Assembly (NCBI GenBank): GCA_007280125.1
Contig: QYPT01000078.1
Coordinates: 1-42,022, forward strand
Length of the DNA stretch: 42,022 nt
Reading direction: 5' to 3'
Origin: Streptomycetaceae bacterium
Lineage (GTDB): Bacteria > Actinomycetota > Actinomycetes > Nanopelagicales > Nanopelagicaceae
In this document: positions 3,163 through 17,818 of the stretch, in pieces
How the letters are laid out: each line of letters starts with the position of its first letter
Position numbering within the stretch: position 1 is the first letter of the stretch
Program-made: the position numbers and the translations under genes
Notes under the pieces: generated by a model
What the model saw: only the letters and a program-made list of their open reading frames with translations
The model's database searches: none
What the model was told of the DNA's origin: nothing

Positions 3163-3869
3163 CACTTATTGTAAGCGACCTCTGCGTTGATCACGGAGCC
3201 ATCCGCGCCGTTGACCATGTATCCATGAAGATTGAGCAAGGCCAACTTGCTGCTGTTATTGGAGCTAATGGAGCGGGTAAAACAACTCTTCTTCGGGCGC
3301 TCTCTGGGCTGACTCCAACAACCAGCGGAACTGCGTCCTGGCAGGGTCATAACTTGCTTCACGCCAAGCCGGAGAAATTAGTTCGATTCGGAGTTTCTCA
3401 TGTGTCAGAAGGTAAATCTGTAATTCCAGAGTTATCAGTTGAAGAGAATCTCAACCTCGGTGCTCTCTGGCGCCGAAATGCCTCCGAAGCCAAAGAGACT
3501 CGTCAGAGAATTTTTGAGACATTTCCGCGGTTAGAGGAACGATCTACTCAATTAGCCGACACGCTTTCAGGTGGGGAAAGACAGATGCTTGCCATTGGAC
3601 GTGCGCTAATGGCAAAGCCACAACTCTTACTTCTGGATGAACCTTCCTTGGGTCTTGCGCCATTAGTTATCGCTCAAATCTTTCAGAGCATTCGTGATTT
3701 GACTACACGTATGGGATTAACCGTTGTACTTGTCGAACAGAATGCGATGAGTGCTCTTGAAATTGCAGATGTAGGAATCGTTCTTAATTTAGGACGTGTC
3801 GCCGCAACCAACTCCGCACAATCCCTCATAGCCGATCCGCAAGTACGTGCGGCCTACTTAGGTTATTAG
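3159..3869 (+). CDS. livF: Liv-type ABC transporter ATP-binding protein (LivF-like)
   Basis: Second ATPase of the Liv-type importer, pairing with the LivG-like protein. Walker A is GANGAGKTT (35-43), the ABC signature is canonical LSGGERQML, Walker B is LLLLDEPSLGLAP, and the switch position shows the LivF-type VEQN instead of histidine. SHVSEGKSVIPELSVEENL is the usual LivF Q-loop region. Length is 236 residues, normal for LivF. Because the partner ATPase has a degenerate signature, this subunit may carry the better-formed signature of the pair, which is inference. It overlaps livG by four bases, and livH follows after a GGAGG site. Confidence 0.93.
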   Translation: MTLIVSDLCVDHGAIRAVDHVSMKIEQGQLAAVIGANGAGKTTLLRALSGLTPTTSGTASWQGHNLLHAKPEKLVRFGVSHVSEGKSVIPELSVEENLNLGALWRRNASEAKETRQRIFETFPRLEERSTQLADTLSGGERQMLAIGRALMAKPQLLLLDEPSLGLAPLVIAQIFQSIRDLTTRMGLTVVLVEQNAMSALEIADVGIVLNLGRVAATNSAQSLIADPQVRAAYLGY

Positions 3870-3881
3870 GAGGCCATAGCG

Positions 3882-4787
3882 ATGTTTACATTCATAGACA
3901 CAGTTATTATCGGACTCACATCAGGTGCGGTCTATTCCTTGATGGCGATTTCACTAGTTCTAGTCTGGCGCAGTACGAGAGTAATCAATTTTGCTCAAGC
4001 AGGTCAGGCTCTACTTTCCACATATATCGGATACTCATTTATTGGACTTTTTGATTCATATTGGATTGCGCTATTTTTCGCAATTGTTCTGGGCGCTGGA
4101 GTTTCTGCACTCATTGAGATTCTCTTCATGCGTACACTTTTTAAGAGAAATACCGGGCCTATTGCTGGCGTCGCCCCAATCATCGCAACATTGGGACTTC
4201 TTGGATTGATACATGGGCTTATTGGGATATTTATGGGAGGGAAAGAGGCGATTATTCGCCCACCTGTTTCCAATGTTGGTTACACAATTTCTGGTCACAC
4301 ACTGGCTCTTTCGCCACTAAAGCTCGTGATCGTCTCGGCTGTACTTTTCTTGATGATCTCACTTTCATTTATTTTTACGAAAACAAATATTGGATTGGCC
4401 TTGCGCGCATCAGCATATTCACCTGAGATTGCACGATTAGCTGGCGTGAAAGTGGATGCAATAAGAACATTGGGTTGGGCACTTGCAGGAGCGGCAGGAG
4501 CAGCGGCAGGTATGTTGCAAACGCCAAACGGAACGGGAGCGCTTTCACCAGATTCTTTGGAGTTTAGTTTGCTGCTTGTCCTTGGCTTTATTGCAGCTGT
4601 AATCGGTGGCCTTGAAAGTCTCGTAGGTGCGGTAATCGGTGGGTTGCTTCTTGGACTAGTTCTGGCGTTTGTCATCATGTATGTAAGTGCGACTCTTCCA
4701 TTTATGACTGCTTTTCTTCTCTTACTAGGAGTCTTACTTGTGCGCCCTCAGGGAATTATGGGCAGGAAAGTAGGTCGTCGTGCATAA
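3882..4787 (+). CDS. livH: Liv-type ABC transporter permease (LivH-like)
   Basis: Inner-membrane permease of the branched-chain-amino-acid family, 301 residues with about eight hydrophobic segments. The N-terminal GLTSGAVYSLMAISLVLVW and VINFAQAG motifs, the FTKTNIGLALRASAYSPEIARLAGV coupling-helix region that docks on the ATPases, and the LEFSLLLVLGFIAAVIGG stretch with GLESLVGAVIGG are all family hallmarks. The ATG has a clear GGAGG at 3869-3873, eight bases upstream. The last eight bases overlap the next permease gene. Substrate specificity is not visible. Confidence 0.92.
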   Translation: MFTFIDTVIIGLTSGAVYSLMAISLVLVWRSTRVINFAQAGQALLSTYIGYSFIGLFDSYWIALFFAIVLGAGVSALIEILFMRTLFKRNTGPIAGVAPIIATLGLLGLIHGLIGIFMGGKEAIIRPPVSNVGYTISGHTLALSPLKLVIVSAVLFLMISLSFIFTKTNIGLALRASAYSPEIARLAGVKVDAIRTLGWALAGAAGAAAGMLQTPNGTGALSPDSLEFSLLLVLGFIAAVIGGLESLVGAVIGGLLLGLVLAFVIMYVSATLPFMTAFLLLLGVLLVRPQGIMGRKVGRRA

Positions 4788-5781
4788 ATTACTTCATTCA
4801 AATTTTGGGCGATTTGTTTTCTTTATTTTCCTGGGATTCATCATTTTCTTAGCCGGAAATCGCGTGGACGAGTTGCGTGTGTATCAAGGCGCGACACTTG
4901 CAATGTTCGTTGTTGCAATCTCATCAATAATTTTACTGACCGGATATTCGGGCCAAGTATCTCTGGGCCACGGCGCTTTGCTTGCAATCGGTGGATATTC
5001 GGCTGTGCTAGCTAGAAATTATTGGACTTTGCCAATATGGGTTTGCTTTGCCATCGCGGTACTTGTTGCAGCGGCAGCGGGAGCAGTACTAGGGACGGCA
5101 GCTGCGCGTTTATCGGGTCCATATTTGGCAGGAACCACTTTGGCTCTAGCGGTTGGCCTGCCCTCGATTGCTAATCAATTTTCATTCTTAGGTGGGGAGC
5201 AGGGTCTCCTTTTTGATGTAGGGGCACCCCCTATTTCTTTGGGGGCAGATTTCTCTCCCTATAAATGGTATTTCTGGATTGCCGCCTCGGCGGCGCTCAT
5301 CGCTCTGTGGTGGCTGCAAAATATTGTGCGATCGCGTTATGGACGTACATGGCGTGCGGTGCGTGGCAATGAGATTGCGGCGCAGCTAGCTGGAATTCAT
5401 AGCGGTAAGGCGAAAACGCTGGCTTTCACCGTCAGCTCGGGAGTTGCTGGCCTTGCAGGGGCCCTTTTGGCGATGACAATCGGGACCGTTTCCCCCAGCG
5501 CATTCCCGCTGACCTTGTCATTTTCTTTGCTTACAGGCGCGGTTCTGTCTGGCGTAACCACCCTGCCAGGCGTCATGATTGGCGCAGTGACACTGGTTGC
5601 CACGCCTGAGATTTCGCATGCGATATCCAATCGCCTTGGAAATTCAGAAGCGGTGACCACGAACTTACCTGGTCTATTGGTGAGTGCGTTACTGATTCTG
5701 GTGGTCATGCTCGTACCGAACGGACCAGTAGAACAGATGCGCAGTATGCGCGTTCGAAAGAACGCGTCCATATCGCGTTAA
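4780..5781 (+). CDS. livM: Liv-type ABC transporter permease (LivM-like)
   Basis: Second permease of the importer, 333 residues, with a GTG start inside the end of livH (eight-base overlap). Family marks are the VSLGHGALLAIGGYSA motif, the GPYLAGTTLALAVGLPSIANQ segment, and the cytoplasmic loop SRYGRTWRAVRGNEIAAQLAGI that contacts the ATPases. The GALLAMTIGTVSPSAFPLTLS and GAVLSGVTTLPGVMIGAV stretches follow. It ends in a short basic tail. A 47-base gap with a good ribosome site leads into the binding-protein gene, the usual point of raised expression for the periplasmic component. Confidence 0.91.
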   Translation: MHKLLHSNFGRFVFFIFLGFIIFLAGNRVDELRVYQGATLAMFVVAISSIILLTGYSGQVSLGHGALLAIGGYSAVLARNYWTLPIWVCFAIAVLVAAAAGAVLGTAAARLSGPYLAGTTLALAVGLPSIANQFSFLGGEQGLLFDVGAPPISLGADFSPYKWYFWIAASAALIALWWLQNIVRSRYGRTWRAVRGNEIAAQLAGIHSGKAKTLAFTVSSGVAGLAGALLAMTIGTVSPSAFPLTLSFSLLTGAVLSGVTTLPGVMIGAVTLVATPEISHAISNRLGNSEAVTTNLPGLLVSALLILVVMLVPNGPVEQMRSMRVRKNASISR

Positions 5782-13469: not shown

Positions 13470-14231
13470 GTGGAACAGCTCACCCTTTCAGTAGATTGCG
13501 GCGGCCTGGGAATCAAAGCTTCGGTGCTCGATAGCGCCGGAACAATGAGAACCCCGGCCGTTCGCATTTCTACTCCGTACCCGCTATCTCCGCAGAGACT
13601 TGTCGAAACAATTGCGGATTTGGCAAAGACATTGCCACAAGCAACTCGTGCAACGGTCGGTGTTCCCGGAATGATTCGCCACGGCGTAGTTGTTGCAACC
13701 CCTCATTACATCAACGTTGCGGGTCCGCTCACTCGTATGGATCCCGAGTTGAAAAAAGCATGGGATGGTTTTGATATGCGCCAAGCTCTTACCGTTGCGC
13801 TATCAATGCCAACACTTGTCCTCAATGATGCCGAAGTGCACGGTGCAGGTGTTGTAGCAGGCTCGGGTTTTGAAATTGTTTTAACGCTGGGTACCGGCCT
13901 TGGAAGTGCAATCTTCGATGGTGGAGTTCTTGCACCACACATTGAGTTCTCGCATGCACCAGTGCGACGAGCAACAACGTATGACTCGTGGATTGGCGAG
14001 AACGAACGTCGCCGACTTGGAGATAGTTTTTGGTCGCGTAGAATTCGCACGATGGTAGAAGAGTTACGACCAGTATTTTTATGGGATCGTTTATATCTGG
14101 GCGGAGGTAATGCTCGCCGTATTAAAGATGTTGTTATTCATCGCTTGGGAAATGATGTTGTGATAGTGCCCAATGAAGCAGGAATTATTGGAGGCGTGAG
14201 GGCTTGGAGTTTGATTCCACCTGCCCAGTAA
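13470..14231 (+). CDS. ppgK: ROK-type sugar kinase, polyphosphate-glucokinase-like
   Basis: A 253-residue sugar kinase of the ROK/PpgK group, which phosphorylates glucose with polyphosphate and/or ATP. Seen: the N-terminal phosphate motif VDCGGLGIKASVLD, the catalytic-base region VLNDAEVHGAG, and the second phosphate motif VLTLGTGLGSAIFDGG. The sugar-contact segment is IEFSHAP, where PpgK usually has ELGH, so the Glu and His remain. LYLGGGNARR matches the late glycine loop. The GTG start at 13470 lies 13 bases after AAGGGG; spacing is long and the start is moderately sure. The gene converges on the interrupted whiB3/whiD gene with three bases between stops. Substrate and phosphoryl donor are inferred from family. 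Confidence 0.72.
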   Translation: MEQLTLSVDCGGLGIKASVLDSAGTMRTPAVRISTPYPLSPQRLVETIADLAKTLPQATRATVGVPGMIRHGVVVATPHYINVAGPLTRMDPELKKAWDGFDMRQALTVALSMPTLVLNDAEVHGAGVVAGSGFEIVLTLGTGLGSAIFDGGVLAPHIEFSHAPVRRATTYDSWIGENERRRLGDSFWSRRIRTMVEELRPVFLWDRLYLGGGNARRIKDVVIHRLGNDVVIVPNEAGIIGGVRAWSLIPPAQ

Positions 14232-14234
14232 AGG

Positions 14235-14537
14235 CTAAGAAGCGTGCGAAATATCTCCGCCGATATTCTTATTGAGAATAATGAGGCGCTCATCTTCACT
14301 GAGGCCGCCCCAGATTCCGTATGGCTCTTCAACGCTGAGCGCATGGGTCCGGCATTGCTGCAATACGGGGCATCAGGCACAGATTGCCTTTGCCGCATTC
14401 TCGCGATTGCGTCGGCGGGGACCACGTTCTCCATCCGGATGGAAGAACATCTCAGAGGGAAGGTCCTGGCAGGCGCCTGAGTACTGCCATTGCCACAAAT
14501 CAGCAATCGGCTTGGGTAAACGCGATATCTCTGCCAT
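14235..14537 (-). pseudogene. whiB3: WhiB-family regulator (WhiB3/WhiD type) interrupted by an in-frame TGA
   Basis: Read on the minus strand from ATG 14537 (GGAAGG seven bases upstream) to TAG at 14235, the frame encodes a complete 100-position WhiB3/WhiD-like iron-sulphur regulator except that codon 55 (14373-14375) is TGA. The first 54 residues match WhiB3/WhiD closely (SRLPKPIADLWQWQ, MFFHPDGERGP), and after the TGA come CPVLQQCRTHAL and EEPYGIWGGLSEDER. Cysteines 23, 53, 56 and 62 have the spacing C-x29-C-x2-C-x5-C, as in M. tuberculosis WhiB3. The TGA takes the place of the residue just before Cys56, which is Arg in WhiB3 and WhiD, so one C-to-T change from CGA explains it. TGA is an ordinary stop in neighbouring genes. 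Options are a recent pseudogene, a sequencing error or stop readthrough. A good promoter remains. Confidence 0.88.
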
Positions 14538-14565
14538 TTGACTACCTTCCGTCGTGAGGGTTACC

Positions 14566-14594
14566 ACTGTACAACCGTTGCGTAGATTGTTCAA
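14566..14594 (-). promoter_or_regulatory. Promoter of the whiB3/whiD-type gene
   Basis: On the minus strand: TTGAAC, a 17-base spacer, TACAGT, then about 28 bases to the ATG with its GGAAGG site. This is among the best sigma-A-like promoters in the window. Its preservation argues that the gene was active until recently or still is. Confidence 0.72.
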
Positions 14595-14678
14595 CTACCT
14601 TTAACACCTCCAATTTTGATCTAGAAATCCCCCCTGTTTTAAGTGGTGGTAATGGCAATAAGGCGGGAGGATATATAC

Positions 14679-15566
14679 GTGGAATTAGTTGAGGGCAGCC
14701 AGGAGTTCCTAAGCGTTGCAAGCGTTGCTCGAACGATGGCAATTGCCCCAGCAACTCTTCGGACCTGGGATCGTCGCTACGGCCTAGGGCCATCAGAGCA
14801 TGAAGTGGGACGGCACCGCCGCTATTCAGAGGCAGATGTCACCAAACTTCTATATATGCGCCGACTCATTATTTCTGGCGTTGTGCCTGCTGAAGCTGCA
14901 GAGATGGCAAAGAATTACACAGGTGCTCGGATTGAGTTAGGGAATGTTGCGCCGCTACAACAGCGCGATGAATTGGTTACATCCCTTTTCCGCGCCGCAT
15001 ATGGCCTGGATGAGCGTTTCTTAGAAGATGCGTTGTCTCAATCATTTGCCGATGATGGAGTCGTGAAAACTTGGCATGAGGTTGTAGTCCCATTGATGGT
15101 CAAAATCGGAGAAGAGTGGGAGCGGACAGACTCTGGTGTAGAAGTTGAGCATTTACTCTCAGAGACTGTCCAACGGTGCCTTCATCGTATTGAATTGAAA
15201 TCGGCAGTAAATACCCGGCCAGTGGTACTTGCTGCAGTCTCTGAAGAACAACATAGTTTGGTGCTCTTAGCAGTGAAGGCGGCCCTCGCTGAAAAAGGAA
15301 TTGCTTCCTATTACTTAGGTGCTCGCACGCCAGGTGAGGCTATAAATTCCATTGTCAGCAGGGTCGGTCCTCCAGCAATTTTCCTCTGGGCCTTGTTGCC
15401 AGAAAACGCTGACCCGCATATCTTTAAAAATCTGCCTAAAGTACGCCCGGCGCCACGAATCCTTCTGGGTGGCTCAGGATGGGACCGAGATGCCTGTGTG
15501 GGAGCCCAGTTTGTCGATGATCTAGCCACTACATGCGAGGAAATTTCAAGGGCGGTTGGACTCTAA
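14679..15566 (+). CDS. MerR-type regulator with B12-binding domain (CarH/LitR-like)
   Basis: A 295-residue transcription factor. A MerR-type winged helix is at the N-terminus (SVASVARTMAIAPATLRTWDRRYG, then GRHRRYSEADV). The middle is a helical bundle with Trp147 and the pair Glu157-His158 in the spacing W-x9-EH, the adenosyl-cobalamin-capping motif of CarH. The C-terminal Rossmann part carries EEQHSLVLLA, whose His192 matches the lower axial ligand of the E/D-x-H-x2-G motif, with Val where Gly is usual. CarH-type proteins repress carotenoid or photoprotection genes in the dark and release DNA when light breaks the cobalt-carbon bond. I chose GTG 14679 because GGGAGG lies eight bases upstream; GTG 14643 is in frame further up. 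It is divergent from the whiB3/whiD-type gene. Cobalamin and light dependence are inferred. Confidence 0.78.
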   Translation: MELVEGSQEFLSVASVARTMAIAPATLRTWDRRYGLGPSEHEVGRHRRYSEADVTKLLYMRRLIISGVVPAEAAEMAKNYTGARIELGNVAPLQQRDELVTSLFRAAYGLDERFLEDALSQSFADDGVVKTWHEVVVPLMVKIGEEWERTDSGVEVEHLLSETVQRCLHRIELKSAVNTRPVVLAAVSEEQHSLVLLAVKAALAEKGIASYYLGARTPGEAINSIVSRVGPPAIFLWALLPENADPHIFKNLPKVRPAPRILLGGSGWDRDACVGAQFVDDLATTCEEISRAVGL

Positions 15567-15575
15567 CTGCACCGA

Positions 15576-17810
<2,235 letters not shown>

Positions 17811-17818
<8 letters not shown>

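Follow-up and report, generated by a model that had tools for sequence, protein, structure and literature searches.

On the minus strand of the window, that is the whole stretch of 42,022 nucleotides analysed here, a WhiB3-class gene of otherwise ordinary appearance is interrupted by an in-frame TGA at codon 55, which on balance is probably a private and very recent nonsense allele. Since the stop is unshared by more than 100 related loci, it is most likely due either to a loss-of-function mutation of recent date or to an error in the consensus.

A WhiB3-class reading frame with a single internal stop

Translation of positions 14235-14537 (minus strand) yields a 100-codon WhiB3-class frame, which reads MAEISRLPKPIADLWQWQYSGACQDLPSEMFFHPDGERGPRRRNRENAAKAICA up to the internal stop and CPVLQQCRTHALSVEEPYGIWGGLSEDERLIILNKNIGGDISHAS from there to the terminal stop. 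The sole interruption is the TGA at codon 55 (14375-14373), which falls between Cys53 and Cys56. All four cluster cysteines (Cys23, Cys53, Cys56 and Cys62; spacing C-x(n)-C-x2-C-x5-C) are present, as is a GIWGG turn at residues 74-78 that conforms to the Wbl pattern G[I/V]W[G/A]G. The four cluster ligands and the G[IV]WGG turn are common to all Wbl proteins (PMC10245118). With an X at the stop, the frame matches the Pfam family WhiB (PF02467; E 3.8e-24), and its best match in the PDB is WhiB3 (8cyf, E 2.5e-34), with WhiB1 far behind (E 9.6e-14); the frame is thus nearer to WhiB3 than to WhiB1, WhiB2, WhiB4 or WhiB7. The frame is no chance ORF; it is a disrupted member of the WhiB3 subclass, in which an uninterrupted frame and a full-length protein are expected. 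Among the four WhiB genes in the window's genome, the interrupted one is the only WhiB3-type copy, and no second intact copy accompanies it. Translation thus reproduced what an earlier note on this DNA had described, namely a 100-position WhiB3-like frame with four cysteines, GIWGG and a TGA at codon 55. Its remark that the TGA is followed by C requires correction if the +4 base was meant, which is actually T (of TGC, Cys56). The features considered below are as follows:

14238..14537, minus strand: whiB3-like frame, 100 codons with one in-frame TGA; stop TAG at 14235-14237 (translation, Pfam and PDB matches, orthologues)
14373..14375, minus strand: in-frame TGA, codon 55; TCA (Ser) in the two nearest relatives (translation, codon comparison)
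14392..14649, minus strand: 5' half of whiB, leader and promoter, near-identical to the closest relative G004 (1 mismatch in 14392-14537, none in 14538-14642)
14132..14391, no strand: divergent patch relative to G004 (39 mismatches in 260 bases), extending over the end of the ROK gene and the 3' half of whiB, with the TGA at its edge
14566..14594, minus strand: promoter TTGAAC-N17-TACAGT (sequence; core kept in 12 orthologues)
13470..14231, plus strand: ROK-family protein, convergent with whiB
14643..15566, plus strand: MerR and B12-binding regulator (CarH/LitR-like), divergent from whiB, conserved partner

The stop is private to the window and the frame behind it has not decayed

Of the 20 other genus genomes, 16 have an orthologue, and the search of the family found one in 222 of 296 genomes, the window's own included (E <= 1e-30). 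None of the matches listed from the genus and family searches contains an internal stop, the window's own locus excepted, and among 117 Nanopelagicales loci (93 distinct sequences) the stop is again confined to this one locus. Cys23, Cys53, Cys56, Cys62 and GIWG are invariant in all 93 distinct sequences, in which codon 55 encodes Ser (56 sequences), Thr (25), Ala (9), Gln (1) or Asn (1), or is the stop of the window. The earlier note had proposed a CGA-to-TGA transition. However, Arg occupies codon 55 in none of the 117 loci, and CGA was therefore rejected as the ancestral codon. The closest relative (G004, WLMD01000011.1; 94% protein identity) as well as G018 carry TCA (Ser), which implies a C-to-G transversion, and judged from these codons the TGA would most simply have arisen from TCA by this change. 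Absence of the stop from close relatives is what a nonsense pseudogene should exhibit; it is also the outcome for which the earlier note had foreseen either an error or a strain-private mutation.

Codons 56-88 of the window hold no private residue, as compared to a mean of 0.14 per sequence among the 93 distinct sequences. Relative to G004, the 3' half of whiB displays 13 synonymous and 8 nonsynonymous differences (dS 0.66, dN 0.08), while 15 neighbouring genes range from 0 to 0.028 in dN and from 0.01 to 0.34 in dS. The 3' half thus has the highest dN in the stretch, but also the highest dS, and its changes lie partly in the naturally variable tail. The absence of private residues and the dN/dS of 0.08/0.66 indicate that no decay has accumulated after the TGA, as had been noted before. 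For most of its history the frame was constrained, and the stop must be either of very recent origin or not real. Relaxed selection after the stop was considered and not seen; a very recent stop would leave no trace, which gives this comparison little power.

A recent null allele as the favoured explanation

In the reading we favour, the Ser codon TCA of the nearest relatives differs from the TGA by a single C-to-G change, promoter and start are intact, and the downstream part still reads as a normal WhiB3. Transcription and initiation would proceed, and the ribosome would stop at codon 55 and free a 54-residue peptide. Such a peptide would keep Cys23 and Cys53 only and be devoid of Cys56, Cys62 and the G[IV]WGG turn. 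Lacking two cluster ligands and the turn, it would presumably be unable to hold a [4Fe-4S] cluster or to dock on sigma factor region 4, making the allele a null.

Loss of the gene looks tolerable, as some relatives do without it: within the genus, G005, G008, G011 and G012 have no copy, and a search at E <= 1e-30 gave no match in 14 of 108 good-quality family genomes. The ROK gene and guaB have stayed next to each other in G005 (90% complete), with a different gene in between, whereas in G008, G011 and G012 the ROK gene is located elsewhere or its neighbours are unmatched. The intervening gene in G005 (L307, 777-1466), which replaces the whiB3/MerR pair, is a dienelactone-hydrolase-like frame.

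Two points count against a real private allele. C-to-G transversions are a rare mutation class, and exactly at the TGA the divergence from G004 changes sharply, as could also happen in a strain-chimeric consensus.

A divergence step at the TGA and the case for an assembly artefact

The window aligns with contig C13 of G004 over 23.9 kb at 94.1% identity, and no more than about 20 bases from codon 55 the level of divergence shifts suddenly: two changes, both synonymous, separate the sequences in codons 1-54, as against 21 changes in codons 56-100. Mismatches amount to 39/260 in 14132-14391 (~15%) versus about 2/258 in 14392-14649 (Fisher p 2e-10), and synonymous differences across the step to 13/30 versus 2/35 (p 7e-4), both p values having been computed once the step had been seen. 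On a plain reading, the step reflects homologous recombination between lineages; alternatively, it marks a strain switch in the assembly, i.e. a strain-chimeric consensus. As the TGA sits at the edge of the divergent patch, its base is open to doubt. A further step was observed at 5501, where identity to G004, ~0.76-0.90 across 3549-5500, rises abruptly to about 0.97; this is probably a recombination boundary.

It is accordingly a serious possibility, albeit one we would not call probable, that the TGA is a consensus or assembly artefact, in which the contig of a bin from a microdiverse population switches strain near codon 55 and a wrong base was placed at the junction. The jump in divergence at the TGA and a lesion unshared by any orthologue agree with this, as does the nature of the bin, a metagenome-assembled freshwater actinobacterium that is fragmented and slightly contaminated (1.86 Mb in 128 contigs, 86% complete, 3.6% contaminated). 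However, the contig has comparably divergent patches in other places (9/891 windows of 45 codons), as ordinary recombination predicts, and a lesion survey argues against an error-prone consensus. When 661 kb of the window's genome were compared with 1.2 Mb of G004, 549 G004 frames were comparable, none of which is frameshifted in the window's genome and nine of which, whiB included, contain a stop there. Five of the eight other cases were read residue by residue and are two leader extensions upstream of a conserved start and three apparently spurious frames; in the remaining three, the stop lies inside the first 20 residues or at the last residue. This leaves whiB as the only convincing mid-gene nonsense lesion among the 549 comparable ORFs. 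Base-call noise is thus not general, which somewhat favours a real allele. Of the options offered by the earlier note, a very recent pseudogene and a base-call error are both supported, whereas controlled readthrough is not.

Another idea is that the recombination breakpoint fell within codon 55, with one parent supplying the T and a second the GA. This is very improbable despite the proximity of step and codon: NGA stands at codon 55 in none of the loci tallied, so that there is no known donor of the GA, and the idea was rejected on this ground. Exact matches to the region were absent from viral contigs, and literature searches retrieved no report of this case.

Recoding of the TGA

Controlled UGA readthrough, which would make synthesis of a redox sensor conditional, had likewise been put forward earlier, and we regard it as most unlikely. 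In its favour, the frame past the stop is intact and UGA is the leakiest stop codon in bacteria (PMC5289835); however, a recent mutation would leave the downstream frame intact anyway, and the stop is conserved in none of the listed orthologues. Neither a leaky context nor a stimulatory RNA structure was found. The +4 base is U, and UGA followed by U is linked to low readthrough by work cited in PMC5289835; the local RNA fold is no better than that of shuffled sequence (z 0.57). A tRNA with anticodon TCA, which reads UGA, is not among the 39 tRNAs called by ARAGORN (30 plus nine) from 41 tRNA matches, the other two matches being weak and without a call. As the bin is 86% complete and tRNA-Trp was likewise unseen, this absence is no proof. 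Nor has the code changed, in agreement with the earlier note: TGA is a normal stop here, and in 661 kb of the window's genome 183 of the 607 mechanical ORFs with a length of 90 aa or more end in it. A lineage-private readthrough of this WhiB3-class redox regulator, newly evolved in the population and therefore invisible in relatives, is less likely still.

Reading of the UGA as selenocysteine beside the third cluster cysteine is the least credible proposal: although the codon adjoins a cysteine and the protein is a redox protein, no relative has Cys at position 55, and the proposal was rejected because SelB gave no hit above cut-off in any of the 21 genus genomes and tRNA-Sec none in the window's 86% complete genome. 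Restart at the ATG overlapping the TGA (TGATG) was dismissed from reading the sequence, being out of frame and short; moreover, this ATG was not made by the lesion, as the nearest relative has it too (TCATGC).

Promoter and divergent gene pair

The claimed promoter holds up: TTGAAC-N17-TACAGT can be read in the sequence, and 12 orthologues have retained its core in their upstream regions. Alignment of these upstream regions reveals the same core (TTGAAC, CGRTTGTA) with the rest of the leader variable. Within 14536-14600, it is TTGAAC and then CGRTTGTA around -10 that are strongly conserved, next to a variable leader; perhaps the core includes an operator overlapping the promoter.

Gene order around whiB is groEL-ROK on one side, and the divergent MerR-B12-binding gene followed by guaB on the other. 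Beyond the MerR gene lie tandem IMP dehydrogenase-like genes (15591-16709 and 16706-17818) with a four-base overlap, followed by a GMP synthase-like frame. The MerR-B12-binding product (pair 14235-15566) matches light-dependent CarH (PDB 5c8d, E 1.4e-21). Of 97 loci examined, 90 retain the divergent pair, and the four genomes of the genus that lack the whiB3-like gene lack its MerR-B12 partner as well, which suggests that in freshwater actinobacteria the two genes form a linked unit of light and redox regulation.

As it stands, the significance of the stop is small, this being a further case of a private nonsense allele or of an error in the consensus. It may serve as a caution that, when a metagenome-assembled genome has an in-frame stop, a perfect frame beyond it is no evidence for recoding, a matter that relatives settle quickly. 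The divergent pairing of a WhiB3-class gene with a CarH/LitR-like regulator is of longer-lasting interest.

Comparison with known systems

With WhiB3 of Mycobacterium tuberculosis (PDB 8cyf, 8cwr, 8cwt) the frame shares the four cysteines and the G[IV]WGG turn, and in addition a WxW before the first cysteine and an Arg-rich stretch near MFFHPDGERG. The residue preceding the third cysteine differs, being Arg in WhiB3, Ser, Thr or Ala in Nanopelagicales, and a stop in the window. The Nanopelagicales orthologues (G004, G018, G015 and others) are alike in frame and promoter core and have the divergent MerR-B12 neighbour in most loci; those listed are intact and without a stop, in contrast to the gene of the window. 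Recent nonsense pseudogenes of bacteria likewise feature a single-base stop that is unconserved and followed by no further decay, and from these the present case has no evident difference.
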